Virus record (IMG/VR): IMGVR_UViG_3300017971_000754
Coordinates: 1 to 24,304 of that record
DNA from: a virus
Length of the DNA: 24,304 nucleotides
Strand: one strand, 5' to 3'
The stretch's first letter is position 1. Each line of letters begins with the position of its first letter. The position numbers and the translations under genes were made by a program. The notes under the pieces are model-generated. The model saw only the letters and a program-made list of their open reading frames with translations, was not told the origin of the DNA and made no database searches. This document shows positions 5,846-18,002 of the stretch, piece by piece.

Positions 5846-8800
5846 TCATTGTCGCTCCATGGCTTTGCGTTCGCGTTCCGCCATTTGCTTTAATTGTTTG
5901 AGTTGTGCGCGGTTTAGCCGGCCTTGAAGCGCATCCCTGGCGATCTTGATTTGGCGCTCTTCAATCTTATTTCGCTTATCCCTGTCATACGTGGAATACT
6001 GGATGTCTCGCAGCACGCTTAATGCGCGAACAGCATCCATGATACGAAGCCGTTCAAGCCGCTCTTCCGGGGTTTCTTCGCGCCTTTTGGAAGCCTGTCG
6101 CTCAAGAACTTCGCCATAGCGAGTATAAAGCTTTTCAATTGAAATTGGATTGCGGGCCATCTGTCCGCCTCGCTGGAAGATGGTTCCAATGACTGGCATA
6201 TCAGCCGGCTCGAATTCGTCCTCTTGCCTTACGCCGGCCCCGCGGCCAAACACGCTTAGGACATCCACCCCAACCCCACCAAAGAGCGATCGGATGGAAT
6301 GGTCGATTCGACGCGGGCTCACGTTGAACAAATCGCCCAGCCAAATTGAAGTATTGAGCGTATAGGGGCCAAATTGTTCCTCTTGTGGAATATTGCCCAT
6401 AATCTCCCCGCGGGGAACTATAGGGGAATCAAAGAAGAAGTTCTTATTGGCTGCCTGTTCCAAAGCAAGCTTCGGTAATACCGGCATTGGGCTTGGAAGG
6501 AATCCCGTTACCCATTTGCTTGCCCACTCAGACGCCGCCTGCGGGTCTTCCGCATACCAGGCGTCTATCAATGCTTCTGCGCCGGCCAAAAATATGCCAT
6601 CTGCTTCGAATGCCCGCGGGATCCGGATCAATTCATCGCCAACTGGAATATAGGTGAAAATGTAACGCTCTTCCAGCGGCATTTCCCGCCACCATTCCTC
6701 ATCCTTGTTCCGCATCCAGTTAGCAAGAACCGCCGCTGTTCCATAAAGTCCGCGAAGCATGAACTTGCCCGGATTGCGCTTTAGCGCCCTTGCGTGGGCA
6801 ACCGGTCCTTGGATGGCTGCATTGAAGAATGGAACAGCTTGATTCACCTTCCTTGCCACATCTCCAGCCTGGGTGAAATCGGTTGTTACCTGCTTGGCGG
6901 CAATTGCCAGCTTTTGGGCAATATCAGCGGTCAAGGGTTGTTTTGGATCATAGCCCAAGTCTTTTGCGTAAAGCTTCATTTCCGCTAGGCGTGAGGCAGA
7001 TTCAGGGAATTGAAGCACCTTAATCAAGGTATCATAATAGTCACCCGGATCAAAGAAGCTCCAACGACCGCCACGCTTAACCCTTCTTGCGGCGCGTTTA
7101 AGTGGCCGGGTGTCCTGTCCTAATGGCTGGGCCATCTCAATTCCCATGCGCTCGAACATGTCAATCCACTGTGTTCCGATCTTTCCCCCTGTCATGGTAT
7201 AGACAAAGGAATCCCACATCGACCCCAGCCAAGTGTGAAGCAATCTTGCCTGATTCGCGCCAGCTCGGCTGTTAAGGTGAAGGGTCCTCAAATCTCTTAA
7301 GGGATTTGTAACAAGGGAGAATGAAGCCCGTAAACCGGTTGTCCCGATTCGCATTGTGCGGGCCGGCAAGCCTAAGAATATATCAAGGATCTTTGGCAGA
7401 TTGTATAAATCCATGCCGTTAAGCGCCTTATATAAATCAACGTCCATTTCCAGCCAACGGGTTTTGCCATCGATATAAACTGGCATTATCGGATTTTCAT
7501 TTGGACTGGCTTGGTGTGCCGGGGCAAAGAAGGTCAATATTTCATCGGCAATGTCACCTGTCATGGCGTCGGCTTCTGCCTGAAATTGGACGGCGGCCAA
7601 AGGATCAAGCTTGCCGCTGATCTGCTCAATAACATCGGCCACACTTCTGGCTGCTTGGGGAACCATGTCTTTAGGAACTTCAAAGATATAATGGCCCATG
7701 CCATCGGTATTATCAGCAATCCTTATGATCTGCTCTAATATAAGCCGTTGGTGTGCCTTCAAGACAACTTGCTTGGCCTGGGTAAGCATACTTTCAATTG
7801 GATCTTTGATGCGGCGGCCGGATCCCTTTAGGCGTTTTGTGATGCTGGCAGTTGAGGCCTTCCCGCCAATCGATTGATAAGCCTTGTCGAGTGTGTTGAA
7901 TTCACGAAACAGCGGGATATAAAACCCCGGATCGGATTGGCGGATTTTGGTTACTGTCTCGGCAAAGTCTTCGCTGGATTGTGCGGCATAAGAAAGAATA
8001 CCATTGTTCCAATCATAGACAATTTGCGCGGCCTTCTTGAATTTTGGGTTTTCAAGTTCATTTACCAGAAATTGAGCATCCTTTAAATCCATACCAGGAT
8101 TGCGCTTGCGCGGATCTGTCCATAGGGCCAATGAACGCTTTGCCCAAAGATATATGACAAACTTTTCTGAATCCTTTTGACCAACCAGTTCAAAGGCTTC
8201 TGCCAATGGCGCTGTTCCTGTCACGTTCCCAGCAATATCCAACATACCTTTAGTCGCCATGTAATCAACAACGGCATCAGCGGTAAGCCTGCGGCTTTGC
8301 ATGGTGTAAACCGGATCCGCATCTTCGGGCAATGCATCCAGCCCCTTTCGTTCTGCCGCTTCCTTGGAAAAGCGCTCAATCGCTGCGCCCGCCTCAATGA
8401 ATTGGCGATAGAATTCCTTGCCGGCTATCTTGGATTTTCCGGCCACCTTTTGCGCCATCGTTTCAGCCTTGGCAATATTGGCCTGAGCTCGCGCTTCTGC
8501 GCCTTGTAGCAAGTACCGTCTTACAATATCGCTGGCGTTGTCGAAGCGCCGCCTCAATGAAGGAATACTATTAAGCTTCTTCTCCCAAAACTTGAAGAAT
8601 TCCGGAGCTTTAATTTCTGCATTGCTCGGATCGGAAAGGCGAAGGCGGATAAACTCGGAAAATCCTTCTGACTTATACCCGCCATTAGGAACCTTGCTTC
8701 CATAAAGATCCTTCCCCAGCTTGTTTAATTCTGCCTTGGCTCTAGCGTTGATTTCCTTTGATCGCTGCCAAACCGGACCCGTTCCAAATAAAGCGTCTTC

Positions 8801-11635
8801 CATGGCGTGGGCTATCTCATGGGCTGCGGTTGGAACATCGTTTGCGGTGGCAACCCGCACAAGCTTTTGCTTTACCCAAAATGTTCCTAGAGCCTTGCGC
8901 CTTCCGAATCTTCCCTGGCGTATAACGGCTGGTTCTCCTACGGCCTTCATTATGTCGGCAACTGCCTGCATAGCTTGTGGGGAACTTACCGGCTTTGTGG
9001 CGGAAACTGGTTCAACCGCAGCAAAACTAACCTTGGCCGGATTGGGCATATTGGTTCCAAGGGGTGATTCTTCAACGCCTTCCAGGGCAAGCGCATCCCC
9101 CCGGCTTATCGTTTTGCCGCCTTCGCTGGATTCTTGCACAACCCTTTCAACGGGTGAATCGGTAACATTCGATAGTTCTGTACGGGTGCGGACGGTTGTT
9201 GGGCCAGGTGGCGGCATTCCTTCAACTTCTTCACTGATTAAACTTCTCGCTAAATCTTGGTCTTCAAGGATTTTAGCAATAGGCTTTCCCCTTATGATAG
9301 TAATGGTTCCAGTTATGTCTTTACCAAGTTTTTTTGCTGCAAACCATCTATGATGACCATCTTCAATTTGAAGATTTCCTTCTTCACTAACGCCAATTTC
9401 AATTGGTTCGGATAAATCAACACTTCTAACCCAATCCATTCCGCCTTCTTTAAACTTGGCCTCTGGATTAGCTAAGTCTTCCTTATAGCGTATTCCTAAT
9501 TCGTCTGGGCTTACAGTAATGGTTTCATCCTGAACAACGCCCCATGCAGCCTTGTCTAAAACATCAATATCAAGCCGCTCTAAGTCACTCCACTCAACTT
9601 GTCGCTGTTCCGGGCTTATTTCATAGCCCTGCACTTCCCCGCCTTCGCTCTTGAGCGCCTTGGCCGGGTTTTGTGCGGATTCCGCTACTTCAACCGCGCT
9701 TTGACCGTCCTCAGTAGCGAGTTCAGAAATCTGTACGCCGGCTTCCTGGGCTTCCATGGCGGTTTTAACAGCCTTCTTAATATCGAAATGCTGAATAAAG
9801 ATGGCTTCCTTATCCTGTAGGTTTTCAGCCGCTCCTATATCGGTAATTGCCTCTTCTGGAATTCCAAAAAATCGCATGGCATCCGGATTGGCCGTAATCG
9901 ATTCGCGGGCTTGCGCGGTAATATATCCGGTATGCCCGCCACCAACCATGGCAAAGGGTAGTACATTCAAGGCAATGTCCGGAGCGCTCTTAATGGCTTC
10001 CGCTAAGTCTTCGGCAAAATTCGCATCCGGAATGCTTTCATCCAGGGCGCTCGCCATTTCCTGCACCATGGAAGCGGTCAAATCCTGGGCAAGTTCCGTG
10101 GCGGTTTCCACTCCAACCGCTTCCGCTCCGCTTATAATTCCGGCCAATAGCGGGCTTGTTACTTGTGCGCCAAGGCGCTTTTGGATCTTTGAAACGCCAG
10201 GTAACTTACTTAAAACAAACAAATCCCCCATCACTTCCAGCGTGGCGGCTATGGGCGCGGACGCATCAGAAACAAACATGGCGTCTTGTGGATCTAGCCC
10301 CTTGGCCCTAAGCATGTCGTAATGCTCCGCCTGTAGCGCCGGGATCATGCTCTTTAATCCATAGCCCATGCCAACAATTTTGCGGAATTGTTCTTGTCCG
10401 CGGATCCCGCCAACCTTTCGGCCTACCGCAAAGCTTCCAAGCACAAGGGCCATGTCAGCACTCATCCTCGATCCACCATAAACAACCTGTTCATAGGCTG
10501 CTTTGAATGATGGATTGTCGGCAAAACTTTCCGGGCCGGTTACTTCGCGGGAATAGCGCTGCATCCAAAGCATGGTTTCGGCAAAGTCCGCCGCTGTTCT
10601 GGCGTCTTGATAGCGCCTGGCTGCCGCTTCCGGCGGCAATGTCTGATAGAAGGGCATCCGAGTTCCGGGCTCAGTATAGGCAACTCTGAATGCAGCTTGC
10701 GCCGCCTCTGAGACAAAAGGCATATCAGCGGTGGCAATCGGCTCTTGAATAGGTTGACCGGCCTTCACCGCCTCAATAATTCCCATGGCGTTACGGTGGA
10801 TTTCTGCCGGGGTGAGATTTGCGATTTCCCGCATTACTTCATTGGCCCGACCTAAGAAAGATTCAGCAATACCCTTTTCGCCTGGCACAGTTGCTTCAAT
10901 ATAGCGCATGGCAAGCGTGCGGTGTTCCGGAGCAATATCGGCTAATTGTCCAATTGCTTCAAAAAATTGGCGGGTGTCCATAACGTCCGCTTCCTGTACA
11001 ATCGGGCGAATGGTGGCTCCAAGCCGTTCAAACTGTTCGCGGTTTTGGGTTAATGCCTTTGTTGCTTCGCTATGGGCTGCGCCGTAAAGGTCCGCCAAGC
11101 CATCCGGAATTTCCTCTAAATCTTGGGTGAAAGATATAAAGCCATCCATTTCGCTGCCTTCGCGGAAAGCATTCATGTAGGAATGGCGATAAGCCTGGTC
11201 GATTGTTTCAATTCGTTCGCGGGTTGCGTCCATGTCCTCGCGTATGGCTGAATCGACATCCTTTTGCGGATAAAGCATTGTCATAGCCTGCTCAAAAGAT
11301 GGCAAGGACGATTGAACGTCTTCAATGGGCTTTTGAAAACGCATGGCCAAGTAAGCAATCTTGGAGCCTTGGCGGTTGGTTTCTTCGTCGGCATCCTCGC
11401 TGAATGATTCTTCACCATCCCAAATGCGTTGTACCCGGTCCAATGATTCGCGTTCAATGCGGGGATTTAACTGATAGGGAACGCGGCCTTCGTTTCGAGC
11501 GTTGCTTTCGTAATCAATCAAATCATTCCAGGCTTGCCCTAATGCTGCTTGAGCAAACCTTTCGCCGGATGGTGTTTCCTGTTCACCAATTGCCCAATCG
11601 CGCAAGGCAATGGCCTCTCTATCATCAATCGCCAT
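5846..11635 (-). CDS. Giant internal virion/polyvalent protein (gp16 position)
   Basis: A 1929-residue protein where T7 has gp16 (1318). Residues 1-650 are mostly helical. Residues about 679-802 hold a ParB-like domain (PIEIGV..., then DGHHRWFAAKKLG at 759-771) encoded by AT-richer DNA. A zincin motif HEIAH (939-943) is followed by EGFSEFIRLRL (990-1000), which supplies a Glu for the third metal ligand. Residues about 1430-1700 (LRASFSLVTNPLRDLR, VPFFNAAIQGPVAHAR, RYIFTYIPVGDELIRIPRAFE) look like the large C-terminal domain of phage polyvalent proteins. A charged helical tail ends the protein. I see no lytic transglycosylase domain as in T7 gp16. It would be ejected with the DNA. Confidence 0.88.
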   Translation of the reverse strand: MAIDDREAIALRDWAIGEQETPSGERFAQAALGQAWNDLIDYESNARNEGRVPYQLNPRIERESLDRVQRIWDGEESFSEDADEETNRQGSKIAYLAMRFQKPIEDVQSSLPSFEQAMTMLYPQKDVDSAIREDMDATRERIETIDQAYRHSYMNAFREGSEMDGFISFTQDLEEIPDGLADLYGAAHSEATKALTQNREQFERLGATIRPIVQEADVMDTRQFFEAIGQLADIAPEHRTLAMRYIEATVPGEKGIAESFLGRANEVMREIANLTPAEIHRNAMGIIEAVKAGQPIQEPIATADMPFVSEAAQAAFRVAYTEPGTRMPFYQTLPPEAAARRYQDARTAADFAETMLWMQRYSREVTGPESFADNPSFKAAYEQVVYGGSRMSADMALVLGSFAVGRKVGGIRGQEQFRKIVGMGYGLKSMIPALQAEHYDMLRAKGLDPQDAMFVSDASAPIAATLEVMGDLFVLSKLPGVSKIQKRLGAQVTSPLLAGIISGAEAVGVETATELAQDLTASMVQEMASALDESIPDANFAEDLAEAIKSAPDIALNVLPFAMVGGGHTGYITAQARESITANPDAMRFFGIPEEAITDIGAAENLQDKEAIFIQHFDIKKAVKTAMEAQEAGVQISELATEDGQSAVEVAESAQNPAKALKSEGGEVQGYEISPEQRQVEWSDLERLDIDVLDKAAWGVVQDETITVSPDELGIRYKEDLANPEAKFKEGGMDWVRSVDLSEPIEIGVSEEGNLQIEDGHHRWFAAKKLGKDITGTITIIRGKPIAKILEDQDLARSLISEEVEGMPPPGPTTVRTRTELSNVTDSPVERVVQESSEGGKTISRGDALALEGVEESPLGTNMPNPAKVSFAAVEPVSATKPVSSPQAMQAVADIMKAVGEPAVIRQGRFGRRKALGTFWVKQKLVRVATANDVPTAAHEIAHAMEDALFGTGPVWQRSKEINARAKAELNKLGKDLYGSKVPNGGYKSEGFSEFIRLRLSDPSNAEIKAPEFFKFWEKKLNSIPSLRRRFDNASDIVRRYLLQGAEARAQANIAKAETMAQKVAGKSKIAGKEFYRQFIEAGAAIERFSKEAAERKGLDALPEDADPVYTMQSRRLTADAVVDYMATKGMLDIAGNVTGTAPLAEAFELVGQKDSEKFVIYLWAKRSLALWTDPRKRNPGMDLKDAQFLVNELENPKFKKAAQIVYDWNNGILSYAAQSSEDFAETVTKIRQSDPGFYIPLFREFNTLDKAYQSIGGKASTASITKRLKGSGRRIKDPIESMLTQAKQVVLKAHQRLILEQIIRIADNTDGMGHYIFEVPKDMVPQAARSVADVIEQISGKLDPLAAVQFQAEADAMTGDIADEILTFFAPAHQASPNENPIMPVYIDGKTRWLEMDVDLYKALNGMDLYNLPKILDIFLGLPARTMRIGTTGLRASFSLVTNPLRDLRTLHLNSRAGANQARLLHTWLGSMWDSFVYTMTGGKIGTQWIDMFERMGIEMAQPLGQDTRPLKRAARRVKRGGRWSFFDPGDYYDTLIKVLQFPESASRLAEMKLYAKDLGYDPKQPLTADIAQKLAIAAKQVTTDFTQAGDVARKVNQAVPFFNAAIQGPVAHARALKRNPGKFMLRGLYGTAAVLANWMRNKDEEWWREMPLEERYIFTYIPVGDELIRIPRAFEADGIFLAGAEALIDAWYAEDPQAASEWASKWVTGFLPSPMPVLPKLALEQAANKNFFFDSPIVPRGEIMGNIPQEEQFGPYTLNTSIWLGDLFNVSPRRIDHSIRSLFGGVGVDVLSVFGRGAGVRQEDEFEPADMPVIGTIFQRGGQMARNPISIEKLYTRYGEVLERQASKRREETPEERLERLRIMDAVRALSVLRDIQYSTYDRDKRNKIEERQIKIARDALQGRLNRAQLKQLKQMAERERKAMERQ

Positions 11636-13148
11636 AGAAATCTTTTAACCTTTGCATTTGATCTGGCGTCAATCCTTTCTCGCCAGCCGCCGCCTTAACG
11701 GCTTCTCGGAAGCTCATTTGCGCGGTTATTGCTGGAAACTGCTTTTGCAGGTAACGCAGATATGCATTGCGGCCCGCTTCCTTTTTCTCGCCAGCTCCGC
11801 TTGAAGGAGTTTGCGTATCCTTAACCAGAGTGGATGCGTGGCGGGCAATTGATTCGCCGCCGCTTCCATCAGAAGCAAAGAGCATGCCCATAATATCAGA
11901 AGCACTTTTATCCGGATACTTGTTTAAGAGCCTGTCAGCATCTTCCTGCACCTTCAAATAATTCATTTCAGCATCCAAAACTTCATCTTCCCCAATCGGA
12001 TCCAAGCCGCCGCTAAAGAAATTGGAATTGAACATGTTCTTTAAGCGCTCATTTACCCGGCGCGAAGCCTGGGTTTGTCCGGTTCCGTCCAACTGTTTTT
12101 CAAGCTCACTCTTCAAGCTGGCAACAACTTCCTTTGGTTGGCCCAACACTTCGCCCAAAAGCATCGAATACTCTTCGCCCATGGGATCGTTTGTCGGATC
12201 ATAACCGGTAATTTTGCGCCTGAGCGTGGCATGGGTAATAGGATCAAATACATTCTTCGCTGAATGATAGGCATTGAGATAAGCCTTGGCCTGTCCAGCG
12301 CTAAGTCGCCCATCGGCTTCCATTGTGCGAATTTCTTCCGGATCAACCAAATCCCCGTTCTCAATTCCAAGGGCGAGTTCGTTATAAAGAGCCGTGTTGG
12401 CCTTGGAAATTTCTTCCTTAACGCGCCTTTCGACGCTGCGGCGGTCGTCCCTGGCCATCTTTGGCTCAAAGACATATTCACCGTCTACCTTCTTATAAAG
12501 GTTTGCTTGGATGTCCCTTAACGCCACAACATCCCCGCTGGCAATGCGGACCAAGTCTTGCGAATCCTCATAAGCACCGCTTACCCAAAAGCTTTCTATA
12601 AGCTGCGCTTTTGCTTCCGGGCGCATATTAATCTTTTGCAACTCCGCTTCTGCGCCTTCCAAGTCGCCAGCCTTGCGAAGCCGGGTAGCAAGGGTTTGAT
12701 GATTGGCGTTGGCCGTTTCAATTTCCCGCTTGGCAACCTGTCCGCTTACCTTCGCATTGCTACGGGCCTGAGCTGCGATATAAAATTCATTAATAACGCC
12801 TTTTGCCAGTGGGCTATAAGTCTCATTGCCCTCAGTTTCCTTGGTAAGCTGGGACCATTTGTTTTCGGAAATTTCCTTCCATTTTGTATAATCCTGCTCC
12901 TGGGCAATCTCGTTCTCAACTTCCTGCTCAGTATCGATAGCCCGCGCCTTCGCCTCGGCAATGTGGCCTTCGTTGACAACCTGTTGCTTTTGCTGGGCCA
13001 TCTCGCCAAGCATGTTCGATACGCTGCCAATCCCTTGCCCCACACGGCGCAAGGCTTCAAATTCAACATCACGCGCACCCGGATCCATCCGGACCCCTAT
13101 TTGCTGGCGCGTCGGCTTGAATGGTTCTGCTGTTGGAATTCTTGGCAT
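11625..13148 (-). CDS. Internal virion protein, T7 gp15-like
   Basis: A 507-residue protein, shorter than T7 gp15 (747), but in the same place between gp14-like and gp16-like genes. The N-terminus (MPRIPTAEPFKPTRQQIGVRM, then FEALRRVGQGIGSVSNMLGEM) is typical of gp15-class proteins in distant podoviruses. The remainder is almost entirely helical and charged (long Ala/Glu/Lys/Gln stretches about 55-200). It would line the ejection tube across the periplasm together with the gp16 counterpart. The ATG at 13148 has no Shine-Dalgarno and lies 2 nt after the preceding stop, so it is likely translated by coupling. It overlaps the giant gene by 11 nt. Confidence 0.85.
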   Translation of the reverse strand: MPRIPTAEPFKPTRQQIGVRMDPGARDVEFEALRRVGQGIGSVSNMLGEMAQQKQQVVNEGHIAEAKARAIDTEQEVENEIAQEQDYTKWKEISENKWSQLTKETEGNETYSPLAKGVINEFYIAAQARSNAKVSGQVAKREIETANANHQTLATRLRKAGDLEGAEAELQKINMRPEAKAQLIESFWVSGAYEDSQDLVRIASGDVVALRDIQANLYKKVDGEYVFEPKMARDDRRSVERRVKEEISKANTALYNELALGIENGDLVDPEEIRTMEADGRLSAGQAKAYLNAYHSAKNVFDPITHATLRRKITGYDPTNDPMGEEYSMLLGEVLGQPKEVVASLKSELEKQLDGTGQTQASRRVNERLKNMFNSNFFSGGLDPIGEDEVLDAEMNYLKVQEDADRLLNKYPDKSASDIMGMLFASDGSGGESIARHASTLVKDTQTPSSGAGEKKEAGRNAYLRYLQKQFPAITAQMSFREAVKAAAGEKGLTPDQMQRLKDFYGD

Positions 13149-13150
13149 AA

Positions 13151-13522
13151 CTAATTTAGTGTTTCAATGACAGTTCCGCCGTAGTATGGTGGCCAAAGGT
13201 GATATAAATCATTCCAATGGTTCGCATCCCCGCGCATTATCCAGCTTAAAACGTTGCCTTCCTCATCACGCTTCCCCGGTGATTGGACCCTATGCAATTT
13301 TCCTTCCGGCAAATACTCAGGATGTTTATTTAAGGCTACTTCTCCAACCTCTAAACCATTCCAGTCCATTTTCAATACATGTTGGGAATAATATTCATAT
13401 TCAGGGGCCATCGACATACCCTCGGCTTCTATTAAAATAGTTCCGCCACTGTTAGCGCTTGCCGGTATTTCATAGGAAGTACAACCGCTAAAAACCAATA
13501 GGATAATGATTAAATATTTCAT
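13151..13522 (-). CDS. Lipoprotein with S26 signal-peptidase-like motifs
   Basis: A 123-residue protein with a lipoprotein signal: a hydrophobic stretch (4-11) followed by FSGC, with Cys14 the likely lipidated residue. The rest carries, in order, EGMSMAP (34-40, Ser37), LEVGEVAL (57-64), LHRV (76-79, His77), MRGDANHWND (96-105) and GGTVIE (115-120). This is the order of the conserved boxes of signal peptidase I and its SEC11-type branch: GxSMxP with catalytic Ser, 'vGDiv', HRV with His in place of Lys, and GDxN. I infer a peptidase-like fold facing the periplasm. It is translationally coupled to both neighbours (4-nt overlap upstream, 2-nt gap downstream). It could instead be an inactive relative. 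Confidence 0.7.
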   Translation of the reverse strand: MKYLIIILLVFSGCTSYEIPASANSGGTILIEAEGMSMAPEYEYYSQHVLKMDWNGLEVGEVALNKHPEYLPEGKLHRVQSPGKRDEEGNVLSWIMRGDANHWNDLYHLWPPYYGGTVIETLN

Positions 13523-14010
13523 CCTATTGCCCCCGTGTGTTTAAAGCTTGAATAACTCGAAGCCATTTGCCCGGCTCCTTGAAGTAAGGTTGCCCCAGCT
13601 CCCATTGTGCCGGCCCGCTTCGCAGCCGCCCCGGTAAACTTGTCAATTTCTGCCTGGGTAAGATGCTGTTCGGCCAAAGTGGTTCCGCTCCGCTCAATTT
13701 CAAGAGCTTCTAGTTCCATGTCGGTTGCGGTATCGATCATCACTTCAAGCGGCGTTCCTTCTGTAGTTACGCCAGCCTTGGCATACAAGGCGCGTTGCCG
13801 CTTTTCCAGCTTCTCGGCTTCGCGGCGCTTGGCGGAAGCGGCCGACCTGGCATCCAATTGGGCCTGAATTGCCCGATTTTGTTCGACCGCTGCATTGTAC
13901 TTGGCAAGGCGATCCCGGCTCTTCCCCTGTTCATAGGAAGAATAAGCCGATATGCCGGCTGCGGCTGCGGACATTGCAAGCCCAACTATTGCCATGGTTT
14001 CAATTCCCAT
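13519..14010 (-). CDS. Internal virion protein, T7 gp14-like
   Basis: A 163-residue protein (T7 gp14: 196). A Gly/Ala-rich hydrophobic N-terminus (about 6-24) is followed by YSSYEQGKSRDRLAKYNAAVEQNRAIQ, a long charged Ala/Arg/Glu helix, and 'LYAKAGVTTEGTPLEVM', then a second helix and a Gly/Ala-rich C-terminal stretch. This is the classic layout of gp14-type ejection proteins, which form the outer-membrane pore for DNA entry. It has the strongest ribosome-binding site of the block, GGAGG (14017-14021), inside the end of the gp13-like gene. The stop overlaps the next gene's start as ATGA. Confidence 0.88.
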   Translation of the reverse strand: MGIETMAIVGLAMSAAAAGISAYSSYEQGKSRDRLAKYNAAVEQNRAIQAQLDARSAASAKRREAEKLEKRQRALYAKAGVTTEGTPLEVMIDTATDMELEALEIERSGTTLAEQHLTQAEIDKFTGAAAKRAGTMGAGATLLQGAGQMASSYSSFKHTGAIG

Positions 14011-14407
14011 CGCTTACCTCCAAAGATTTAAAGAGTTGCACCATTGATTCATCGCCCTTTTGGAATCCATGCCTTGAATAGATTGCAGCTAATCCGGGTA
14101 TGTTGGTTTGAGCGATCATGGCTCCGTATTTCATGCTCTTGGCCTCATTCTCCAAGAATTTCAATACATTGGTAATGCCCCGGTAAATAGCCTTCGGCCC
14201 AAGGTCCGGATCCGCTGTAAACCATGCCGGGAAACAAACTCCGGTCGAATTGTCCATATAAAGCCAACCCATGGCGCCGGGCCTATCCCCTTCAATCCAG
14301 ACAACCCCAAGCTTTGGCAACATGGTAGACGGAACCTTGCCAATTTCGCGCTTATCCCACCATTGGCACACTATTTCATAGTCGCTATCTTCAAAAAATC
14401 TTATCAT
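14000..14407 (-). CDS. T7 gp13-like protein with GNAT-type features
   Basis: A 135-residue protein; T7 gp13 has 138 and occupies the same place after tail tubular B. The N-terminus (IRFFEDSDYEIVCQWWDKRE) and the C-terminal AIYSRHGFQKGDES segment are arranged as in acetyltransferase-fold proteins, where the latter is the usual 'lY.k.GF' end of the fold. In T7 gp13 is a minor protein needed for proper virion assembly, and I infer an assembly role here rather than catalysis. An acetyl-CoA-binding R/Q-x-x-G-x-G/A loop is not evident. The gene overlaps tail tubular B by 4 nt and the following gene by 11 nt. A GGGAG upstream of the ATG is a usable ribosome-binding site. Confidence 0.75.
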   Translation of the reverse strand: MIRFFEDSDYEIVCQWWDKREIGKVPSTMLPKLGVVWIEGDRPGAMGWLYMDNSTGVCFPAWFTADPDLGPKAIYRGITNVLKFLENEAKSMKYGAMIAQTNIPGLAAIYSRHGFQKGDESMVQLFKSLEVSDGN

Positions 14408-17394
14408 CCGAATGCTCCCACTTTTGGAAATAGGCCGAGAATCGTGGCCGGTAAAGGATCTTCACTCAAAATAATAATGTCACCACTCTTGTTATTTCCA
14501 CCGGGGAAAGATTGCATCTTGTAATCACCCGTAAACAGTGGAGGCGGTCCATCCATGTCATCATCTGTTCCTCGGAATTTAAGATTTTGTGCCTTCTCTT
14601 CTGTTTCGCCGCCCTTGAGTCCAAGGGTTTGATACAGGCGAAGGGTCATTTCACTAATAGCCAGAGTCTTGCCTATACTTGATCCAGTTTGCAGAGCAAG
14701 GGCCAGCTTTTGCGGTTTTAGCTTCCCGGTATAACCTAATCCTATGTGAACAACGTTTCCATAATCATCCAGGCTAACCGAGCCGCTTTGGACAACCTTG
14801 TCCGGAGTAGTTGCACCGTCCACAATAGCCTTAATGGTCTTACCCTCCAAATGGTCAAGGTTGGTAAAGGTATTCTCCACACGCTGCGCCTTTCCGCCTG
14901 TTGCATATGCGCTTGCTCCCTTGAATAGCTTTATATTCCCACCGTTGGCAACCCATGTTCCAAGCGATGGAAAAAGGCTTATTACAACGGTGTAAGTGGT
15001 TACAGAAACAACCGTAAAAGACTTACCGTTTAGAAGAATTCCAGCACTTCCTGTCACACCGTTGATTTCAACCACATCACCCGCAACAAAATGATGAGTT
15101 GTGACAGTGTTCACCGTCACATTAGGCGTTGTGTTGGAGACCGTTGTAATTTCATACTCTTCTTGAACGCGCAAATCCCATGGCTCGGTTCCGGCCTCGT
15201 TATAAAGCTCCCATGTACTGCTTGTCTTGTTCTTTACCGTCAGTTCTATTCCATCAACCTCAGGAATCCCGGTTTCTGTTATAATAACCTGCTGATCGTT
15301 TATAAATGGATGTCCTGAGCTTGTTGCAACCGGAGGCCTGGCATTAGTTAAGTTGCTTAGATTAACAGCCGATCCACCGTCAAAACTAAGAGATGAATCA
15401 AGGTGTATTCTGTCTTCCTGGTCAGTTTCAAAATCCTGAACAACAAAGCGTTCGACGTAACGTTTTGTTACTCCGCTAATGGTACGGTTTACAATTGTCC
15501 AAACCTCATCGGCATCATCTCCATAAATTAATGCAACTGATTCAAATAATCCCTGGGTAACGAACCTAAACCATCCCACAACATTTTCCTGACGCTCATA
15601 GGTCATCCCCAGCAATTCGCCATCATTTCTGATTGCCCAAAAGATAGCGTCAGGTTGGTTCTGGTAATCGATTTGCTTGATTCCGCCTTGGGTAATATGC
15701 TCGCTTAAAATGGTCATGTCCGGGGCAACAAACCCATCTTTTTCAAATGAATAAGTAAGTTCGCGCACCTTGCGGCCCTGTCTCTGCACGAATAAAACAA
15801 CATCATTAACAAGCTTGGCCTGCAATGAATCGCTGCCAAAGTTGGATTGCTGCCTTACAAAGACATTGGTTGGGGTCAATGGTTGAGTAGGGTCATTTGC
15901 CCCAATAGAGAATTCCCCGCCGCTTGTGCCGATAATAAGGCGGGTCTGACTGACAAGCCAAAGGATTTCATTGAATTCCTGAGATCCTATCGTATATTGC
16001 ATCGCGTCGGCATCGTCAGGACCATACTCTAAATTCTCATAATCATTTGACTGAGAAAGCCAAATCGTCTGCCGCTGGTAATCGGTTCCACCAAATGTAA
16101 GACGTTGCTCATATAGGGCTATCGCCCTCGGAAACCCTCTAAATGGGCTCCATGCACCTTCAGCCCAAAGTTTGGTTGCTGCGGTCGATTCTAGTTCTTC
16201 TATAACTTGGGCCGTTACTGACGTTGGAGAATTATAACCAGTGATTTTAACGAATCCGCCTAAAAATTGCTCAGCTATTTCAAGCGTACCTTGCGCTTCA
16301 AAGAACGTGTAATCAACCGCAGTTGGCGTTCCTCCGCCCGTATTGTCAATGTTGAACGGAGGGGATGCGTAAGGATCGCCAGCCGCCGTGTATTTAAGGC
16401 GTAGATAAGTTTTCTTTTCCTCTGTTCCCTCGACACTGACATTTCGCTCAGATGTTGATTTAAATTCTCGTATTTCTTCTGTGTCAGCCCCGAATGTCCC
16501 TGAATCGGATCGTTGGAGAGTGAGAGTTCCCCACCATCGTTCTGAGGTTGTAATCTGCCAATCACCTTTAACGCGCAACGATGAAGAATAAACGGTCCCC
16601 GCCGCCGCACTCATGTTGACTTGTGCGCTTGTACCAACTGTTTTATGTTCAATATACCAATAGCCTCCAACATGCTCGGATTTGAATAAATCACCTGAGG
16701 CGGCAAGGGTAATTGCGGATCCGGTCTTGGCGCTTGGGGCAATGGTGACATCAGTAATATTCTCATCTAGCAATGCTGGCCAGTCCCAAATAACCTCTTC
16801 AAGCGTCCAATAATAATCGGCAAAGCGACTTAACTTGTATGGCGCATGATCCGGATGAACAAAGTAAATGACATCATTTATTTGTGCGTAATGGATGTCG
16901 AATAATTCAGAATCGCTCCATGGAGAAGTTATCTCGTAAGGATCGCCAGAAACCCCAAGAGCAACCCAATATCCTGACGCTAAATCAGTTGCAAAAGTTC
17001 CGGATGTGTGAGCAACCAGGCAATAATAAACAATTCCCAATTCGCCAGCTATATCCCCTACAGAATAAACAGTTGAAGTAGCCCATGCAGAAGATGTTGG
17101 TACGGGAATTTGAGTTCCGTCCTCATAAAACCGAAAATACTGGTCGCCACCTTCAAGAATATAACTGATTGCCGTCGAAAACTGAAACTTAAATAACCGG
17201 CCTTCATCTGTAGAATCCTTTACCTCGGAAATGAACTCCGTTCCAGGTCGCTTCGTGGCGGCCCCGTATTTAGTAGGGCGAAAATTTTCCAGCGTCCGGC
17301 AAGACATGGAATATTTATCCATGTCAATCCTACCCTCAAGCAAAGGCGAGTATTCACCGGCATTGAAGGCAATTATGGATTTGTTTACCGCCAT
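14404..17394 (-). CDS. Tail tubular protein B (T7 gp12-like nozzle protein)
   Basis: A 996-residue protein, longer than T7 gp12 (794). The ATG at 17394 is chosen over a TTG 36 nt upstream because the protein then begins MAVNKSIIAFNAGEYSPLLE, the usual start of this family (SFNAGE.SP.L.GR.D), and abuts the previous stop as TAATG. Later family landmarks include ENFRPTKYGAATKRPGTEFI, RLTFGGTDYQRQTIWLSQ, 'LIIGTSGGEFSIG', and 'LLGMTYERQENVVGWFRF' in the second half. It would form the hexameric tail nozzle. The extra length appears to come from beta-rich inserts in the first 350 residues and after residue about 650. Its stop overlaps the next gene as ATGA. Confidence 0.92.
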   Translation of the reverse strand: MAVNKSIIAFNAGEYSPLLEGRIDMDKYSMSCRTLENFRPTKYGAATKRPGTEFISEVKDSTDEGRLFKFQFSTAISYILEGGDQYFRFYEDGTQIPVPTSSAWATSTVYSVGDIAGELGIVYYCLVAHTSGTFATDLASGYWVALGVSGDPYEITSPWSDSELFDIHYAQINDVIYFVHPDHAPYKLSRFADYYWTLEEVIWDWPALLDENITDVTIAPSAKTGSAITLAASGDLFKSEHVGGYWYIEHKTVGTSAQVNMSAAAGTVYSSSLRVKGDWQITTSERWWGTLTLQRSDSGTFGADTEEIREFKSTSERNVSVEGTEEKKTYLRLKYTAAGDPYASPPFNIDNTGGGTPTAVDYTFFEAQGTLEIAEQFLGGFVKITGYNSPTSVTAQVIEELESTAATKLWAEGAWSPFRGFPRAIALYEQRLTFGGTDYQRQTIWLSQSNDYENLEYGPDDADAMQYTIGSQEFNEILWLVSQTRLIIGTSGGEFSIGANDPTQPLTPTNVFVRQQSNFGSDSLQAKLVNDVVLFVQRQGRKVRELTYSFEKDGFVAPDMTILSEHITQGGIKQIDYQNQPDAIFWAIRNDGELLGMTYERQENVVGWFRFVTQGLFESVALIYGDDADEVWTIVNRTISGVTKRYVERFVVQDFETDQEDRIHLDSSLSFDGGSAVNLSNLTNARPPVATSSGHPFINDQQVIITETGIPEVDGIELTVKNKTSSTWELYNEAGTEPWDLRVQEEYEITTVSNTTPNVTVNTVTTHHFVAGDVVEINGVTGSAGILLNGKSFTVVSVTTYTVVISLFPSLGTWVANGGNIKLFKGASAYATGGKAQRVENTFTNLDHLEGKTIKAIVDGATTPDKVVQSGSVSLDDYGNVVHIGLGYTGKLKPQKLALALQTGSSIGKTLAISEMTLRLYQTLGLKGGETEEKAQNLKFRGTDDDMDGPPPLFTGDYKMQSFPGGNNKSGDIIILSEDPLPATILGLFPKVGAFG

Positions 17395-18002
17395 TATCCG
17401 TTTGTTGAAGTGTATCGGCCCGGAATCCAATTGCTTTGCCTGCGGTGGCTTGGGATTGGTTCCCTGGCTTCGGTCGCGTCAATATTCTTAGCTTCCGGTA
17501 AAACTACCTTATAAAAGTCTTCCTTCATTTCCTCCCGTAAAGATCGATTCTGTTGGACTACCCAAGCTAGCTTTGAAGCAAGTAACGTGTAGATGCATTT
17601 AATTAAAAGCGGATCCAGCAAGGAATCTTCAATTTCTGCAACATAATCCAGGCTTACGGTCGTTTCATCCGTGTAAATATCGCGGCCTCTTCGCTTGAAT
17701 AGTGGCCGGTCAACATCGTCAGGATCAACGTCATTGATTGAGATTATTCTGATAAAATCATCTGGCAAAGCAAACGATTTGGCATAACCAAAGGCTGGAT
17801 CAGCATCATTTTCTGCCAACACAACCAGCTTACCGGCACATTTCCACTTATGAAGCCTTAAGACCTCCCGCTTGGTTGCATCATAAAGAGCGTTGCACTT
17901 GATCGCGGCTTCGCCCTCATCCTCGCTTGTTATATCGGTAACAAGGGTTTCCGAAATTTCCGCCAAAGCATAATTGCAAATATCAGTACGATTGTCCGGC
18001 AT
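17394..18002 (-). CDS. Tail tubular protein A (T7 gp11-like adaptor)
   Basis: A 202-residue protein; T7 gp11 has 196. The opening (TDICNYALAEISE, then a cluster of Asp/Glu), 'KREVLRLHKWKCA' in the first third, FALPDDFIRIISI in the middle and the helical C-terminal half (LLIKCIYTLLASKLAW, then LREEMKEDFYKVVLPEAKNIDA) are characteristic of gp11-type adaptors. They form a ring beneath the portal and join it to the nozzle. It is followed at once by tail tubular B with a TAATG overlap. The ATG at 18002 lies within the end of the preceding gene, after a GGGGGCGGA stretch that may act as the ribosome-binding site. Confidence 0.92.
   Translation of the reverse strand: MPDNRTDICNYALAEISETLVTDITSEDEGEAAIKCNALYDATKREVLRLHKWKCAGKLVVLAENDADPAFGYAKSFALPDDFIRIISINDVDPDDVDRPLFKRRGRDIYTDETTVSLDYVAEIEDSLLDPLLIKCIYTLLASKLAWVVQQNRSLREEMKEDFYKVVLPEAKNIDATEAREPIPSHRRQSNWIPGRYTSTNG

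Follow-up and report, generated by a model that had tools for sequence, protein, structure and literature searches.

A putative S26B (SEC11)-like lipoprotein gene between the gp14-like and gp15-like ejection protein genes of a short-tailed phage

The window analyzed here is the whole of a viral record of 24,304 bases, in which all recognised genes lie on the minus strand. The source is a fragment of a short-tailed phage. The recognised genes encode a portal protein (PF12236), a capsid protein (PF19821), tail tubular proteins A and B, a small protein that occupies the gp13 position, a gp14-like protein, the 123-aa protein that is the subject of this report, a gp15-like protein and a gp16-like protein; a pectate-lyase-like tail protein and a lectin-like protein are also encoded. 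The protein in the gp13 position is referred to as GNAT, following the acetyltransferase annotation of the gene occupying the same position in MW202898. The head and portal of this phage are not T7-like, and in GenBank its portal is related to those of Pelagibacter phages of the HTVC010P type and of epsilon15-like phages. The genes that flank the 123-codon gene, and their order, are shared with the T7-type gp14-gp15-gp16 cluster, and no gene of this kind is known between gp14 and gp15 in T7.

The upstream neighbour (13519..14010, minus strand) encodes a gp14-like internal virion (ejection) protein recognised by phrog_418 (E = 9e-24). The downstream neighbour (11625..13148, minus strand) is assigned as a gp15-like ejection protein from its position and its similarity to the gp15-like ORFs of the related loci L111, L007, L016 and L020, and it is followed by the gene for a large gp16-like ejection protein of 1929 aa (5846..11635, minus strand), assigned from LPD38 (E = 1e-27), phrog_9854 (E = 2e-32) and its position after gp15. 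The gp16-like protein contains a HEIAH motif that appears zincin-like by eye and a ParB-like stretch at residues about 705–802 (phrog_26754/phrog_1033), with LPD38 at residues 1646–1816, and this ejected protein may therefore carry enzymatic domains. Tail tubular protein B (14404–17430, minus strand) is 1008 aa long, about 300 more than its PHROG model, and includes in its interior a weak CBM_5_12 carbohydrate-binding module (115–143) and an FCCH-like stretch (771–830).

The gene between gp14 and gp15 (13151..13522, minus strand) is described here as encoding a putative S26B (SEC11)-like lipoprotein, P0001, on the basis of its ORF, its coding signal and its profile scores. The ORF has 123 codons and the sequence of its 123-aa product is MKYLIIILLVFSGCTSYEIPASANSGGTILIEAEGMSMAPEYEYYSQHVLKMDWNGLEVGEVALNKHPEYLPEGKLHRVQSPGKRDEEGNVLSWIMRGDANHWNDLYHLWPPYYGGTVIETLN. 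When codons are scored by the phage's own codon usage, the P0001 frame obtains +0.105 per codon, whereas the other five frames range from -0.25 to -0.60 and 2000 nucleotide shuffles reach -0.07 at best. A first-pass annotation, which gave no strand, had described a 123-residue protein with the motifs GxSMxP, vGE, HRV and GDxN, found here as GMSMAP, VGE, HRV and GDAN, and both the translation and the frame-specific coding signal on the minus strand confirm it. The start of the gene overlaps the stop of gp14 as ATGA, behind a G-rich run, and its TAG stop lies 2 bases ahead of the gp15 ATG. No clear Shine-Dalgarno sequence precedes gp15 in this phage (13149–13178, minus strand), but AGGAG stands upstream of gp15 in L111, the nearest relative. 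Given the lack of a clear Shine-Dalgarno sequence and the 2-base gap, translation of gp15 probably depends on the inserted gene, and the insertion seems to have placed gp15 under translational coupling. The G+C content of the P0001 gene is 0.417, compared to 0.551 in gp14 and 0.502 in gp15; the low value is consistent with a recent acquisition, although it does not prove one.

All four S26 boxes are present in P0001 in the proper order (minus strand throughout). Box B, GMSMAP (residues 35–40; 13403..13420), contains the putative nucleophile Ser37. Box C, VGE (residues 59–61; 13340..13348), aligns to VGE of SEC11A and to VGD of other S26B proteins, while box D, HRV (residues 77–79; 13286..13294), provides the putative base His77, located 40 residues after Ser37 as H96 is after S56 in SEC11A. 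Box E, GDANHWND (residues 98–105; 13208..13231), includes Asp99 and Asp105 with a spacing of 6. Both the Ser-His and the Asp-Asp spacing are identical to those of SEC11A, whose human sequence was confirmed through PDB entry 7p2p and which uses a Ser-His-Asp triad in catalysis (PMC13385932). Ten residues are invariant in an alignment of P0001 with six S26B sequences (A3), namely Ser37, Met38 and Pro40 of box B, His77 and Arg78 of box D, and Gly98, Asp99, Ala100, Asn101 and Asp105 of box E. The ordered box motif occurred in 0 of 300,000 shuffles of P0001, and past box E the protein aligns nearly without gaps to viral S26B domains up to its C-terminus. Box B reads GMSM and not SGSM, so that the Gly before the catalytic Ser is missing, and the first GD of box C is absent, with YYSQ found where GD (or GS) is expected about 10 residues downstream of box B. 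The base position is occupied by His and not Lys; the Ser-Lys dyad of S24 (LexA/UmuD) and S26A (LepB) is absent from P0001.

The N-terminus of P0001 resembles a short lipoprotein-type signal, MKYLIIILLVFSG-C14 (residues 1–14; 13481..13522, minus strand). The cysteine of a lipobox usually lies at positions 15–35. The first-pass annotation had a lipobox replacing the usual membrane anchor, and a putative lipobox, LLVFSG-C14, is present, with the residues of MKY-LIIILLV-FSG-C14 fitting the pattern of a basic n-region and a short hydrophobic signal before the lipobox; the reservation is that Cys14 sits early, behind a hydrophobic run of only about 8 residues (L4–F11) followed by F-S-G-C. Such a run cannot span the membrane, and P0001 lacks the N-terminal anchor helix typical of S26B. 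Because the run is too short for an S26B membrane helix and FSGC follows it, lipidation is the simpler reading, and a lipid anchor at Cys14 is plausible.

Profile comparisons point to the same family. Among 18,950 NCBIfam models searched with hmmscan, the sole match of P0001 was TIGR02228 (archaeal/SEC11-type signal peptidase, S26B), at E = 0.001 and 19 bits over residues 5–108, far below the family cut-off of 51.85 bits. The core without the first 26 residues scored 14.7 bits, and since its E value rises to 0.02, the hydrophobic start supplies part of the match. Scored with a profile of 13 S26B proteins that had been made without reference to P0001, the protein obtained 14.1 bits, compared with 4.5 bits reached by 5000 shuffles and a best score of 8.0 bits among 3650 ORFs of related phages. 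With a second S26B profile (14 sequences) P0001 scored 14.8 bits versus at best 7.9 among 12,295 frames. The hhalign comparison of P0001 with S26B yielded a score of 31.9 (E = 3.1e-5), whereas neighbouring proteins gave E values of 0.2–0.4 and the best of 200 shuffles a score of 19.2. The S26-like reading proposed earlier is supported by the single NCBIfam match, by an independent S26B profile scoring far above shuffles and by hhalign (E = 3e-5), and we regard the S26B-like assignment as fairly well supported at the level of sequence. We use the term S26B-like rather than S26B member because of the GMSM form of box B, the lost first GD and the score below the cut-off. Neither the Pfam S24/S26 models nor TIGR02227 matched P0001, and PADLOC returned no match. 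Pfam DUF3297 (E = 0.09) and weak PHROG and PDB matches were judged to be chance, and an O-spanin (Rz1-like) identity was set aside, as P0001 has no spanin match and no lysis genes were recognised beside it.

SEC11-type signal peptidases are membrane-integral enzymes. With the S26B peptidases as a group (SEC11, archaeal signal peptidase I, SipW), P0001 has in common the order and spacing of Ser-Met-x-Pro, VGD/E, His-Arg-Val and GDxN...D, the His in place of Lys, and a domain extending up to the last G-x-V-x-x-T strand. It differs from them in carrying a putative lipobox instead of a membrane helix and in ending before the IPxxG segment and the C-terminal helix. S26B signal peptidases scoring above the TIGR02228 cut-off were also found in phage/virus contigs (L106:5001–5282, from human faecal samples; L148:3001–3297; L150:513–797). 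These resemble P0001 in placing an S26B domain in a viral record and are 23–30% identical to it, but they possess an N-terminal hydrophobic helix and, as far as seen, are not surrounded by an ejection cluster. AF2 modelling from P0001 alone reached a pLDDT of 45. With three viral S26B rows added (four sequences), the model was mostly beta with a short helix and a strand leading into Ser37 (pLDDT 58, pTM 0.48), where the added rows would bias the model. Foldseek and VIA-align searches with these low-confidence models returned nothing meaningful, and the PDB matches included no S26 structure.

To place the gene in a wider context, relatives were collected via portal, capsid and gp14. In about 40 related loci that have the gp14-gp15 junction, gp15 follows directly after gp14, and no lipoprotein or S26-like ORF occurs between the two genes. 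The combination of an S26B-like domain, a putative lipobox and the gp14-gp15 slot was observed in none of these phages. The nearest relative, L111, also lacks the insertion; its proteins are 61% (tail tubular B), 63% (gp14) and 35% (gp15) identical to those of the present phage. A scan of 130 related loci with the S26B profile detected no further S26B-like ORF. Homologues of P0001 were absent from phages and plasmids searched by tblastn, from viral and genome collections, from 12 related viral records and from 398 genomes of the phylum of G001, where a single match was taken as noise on account of five stops. The DNA pattern MSM.P...HR...GDxN had two matches, both judged to be chance and without a matching ORF, and subsequently none. 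P0001 is known from a single occurrence, and the lack of such a gene in about 40 relatives indicates a lineage-specific insertion and not a conserved part of the ejectosome.

The first-pass annotation had also suggested a stoichiometric partnership between P0001 and the ejection proteins. This idea is not supported, as about 40 relatives possess the cluster without the gene. A lipoprotein leaves the cytoplasm and receives its lipid at the inner membrane of the cell in which it is made, so it should not be packaged with internal virion proteins; on such general grounds an exported lipoprotein would not enter a capsid built in the cytoplasm. Because a lipoprotein should stay in the producing cell, a function in the envelope of the infected cell is likelier than a role as a virion partner. 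We tentatively propose that P0001 is a late-expressed S26B-like peptidase, fixed by a lipid anchor at the periplasmic face and derived from a lineage-specific cargo gene, a reading that we consider possible but short of probable. The cargo gene would have been inserted precisely between gp14 and gp15, and its product would be a minimal S26B (SEC11/SipW-like) serine-peptidase domain with the membrane helix exchanged for a lipoprotein signal. Presumably made late, with its translation coupled to that of gp14, P0001 would be exported and anchored by Cys14 on the periplasmic side of the envelope of the infected cell, where the Ser37-His77 pair, aided by Asp105 or Asp99, may cut or bind proteins crossing or located at the envelope. 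The target could be a host envelope protein or the ejection proteins that related phages bring in, and the likeliest use would be to shield the producing cell from a second infection; superinfection exclusion is perhaps the role of P0001. Envelope proteins encoded by phages, as P0001 is predicted to be, include the lipoprotein Ltp of phage TP-J34, described as acting in superinfection exclusion (PMC3952083), and SieA of P22, described as working against ejection proteins (PMC10883804). A periplasmic peptidase with a gene next to those of the ejection proteins would suit a role of this sort. Where these reports describe the two proteins no S26 domain is mentioned, unlike P0001. The Ltp gene belongs to a lysogeny module and SieA is expressed from the prophage, whereas the P0001 gene lies in an ejection operon.

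A more specific proposal, in which P0001 is a SEC11-like Ser-His peptidase tethered by lipid, cleaves ejection proteins in the periplasm and so serves as a superinfection-exclusion or ejectosome-processing factor, is highly doubtful; a proteolytic factor of this kind encoded within the ejection operon itself would, if true, have no known counterpart. P0001 could instead retain the S26-like form as a catalytically dead lipoprotein used for binding, for example in superinfection exclusion or in the masking of a receptor or a secretion factor. The missing first GD and the altered box B suggest relaxed constraint, and a signal-peptidase-like protein of S. pyogenes is known to preserve the geometry of the catalytic core although it lacks Ser and Lys (PMC12984324). 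However, Ser37, His77, Asp99 and Asp105 are all kept at the SEC11 spacing, which is unexpected in an inactive protein, and we consider this alternative rather unlikely.

The tight coupling of the gene inside the ejection operon would also suit a virion-borne processing enzyme, as the first-pass annotation had envisaged, that escapes export, is packaged with gp14, gp15 and gp16 and, once ejected, cuts an ejection protein or a host envelope protein in the periplasm of the next host at entry. Cleavage of an ejection protein has one precedent, P22 gp20 (PMC8954989). Such a role nevertheless seems very unlikely, given the related phages that have the cluster without the gene and a lipoprotein signal that would direct P0001 into the periplasm of the cell that makes it before any capsid is assembled. 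Finally, P0001 may be a small phage lipoprotein with no relation to S26 peptidases, its boxes having arisen by coincidence, a notion consistent with the poor AF2 models without an S26 fold match, the lack of significant Pfam or PHROG matches and the subthreshold TIGR02228 score. It is decidedly unlikely in view of S26B scores far above those of shuffles and other ORFs, and of a box order, spacing and region past box E that all fit S26B.

A phage S26B protein cut down to the catalytic domain and a lipid tether would be architecturally new and would offer a natural example of a minimal S26B enzyme. Should P0001 act on ejection proteins, superinfection exclusion would have a route by proteolysis, and the protein would give a means of studying how the envelope-spanning DNA conduit can be blocked.

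The gp14-gp15 slot shows other features in related phages. In one of them (L016:15610–15693) it contains a possible membrane peptide of 27 residues (MKKLLFYAFLAFVLFDAVGFVVFFICT), and in another (L129:3930–4060) the junction is occupied by a short direct repeat of the CAGTGAACAGT type.
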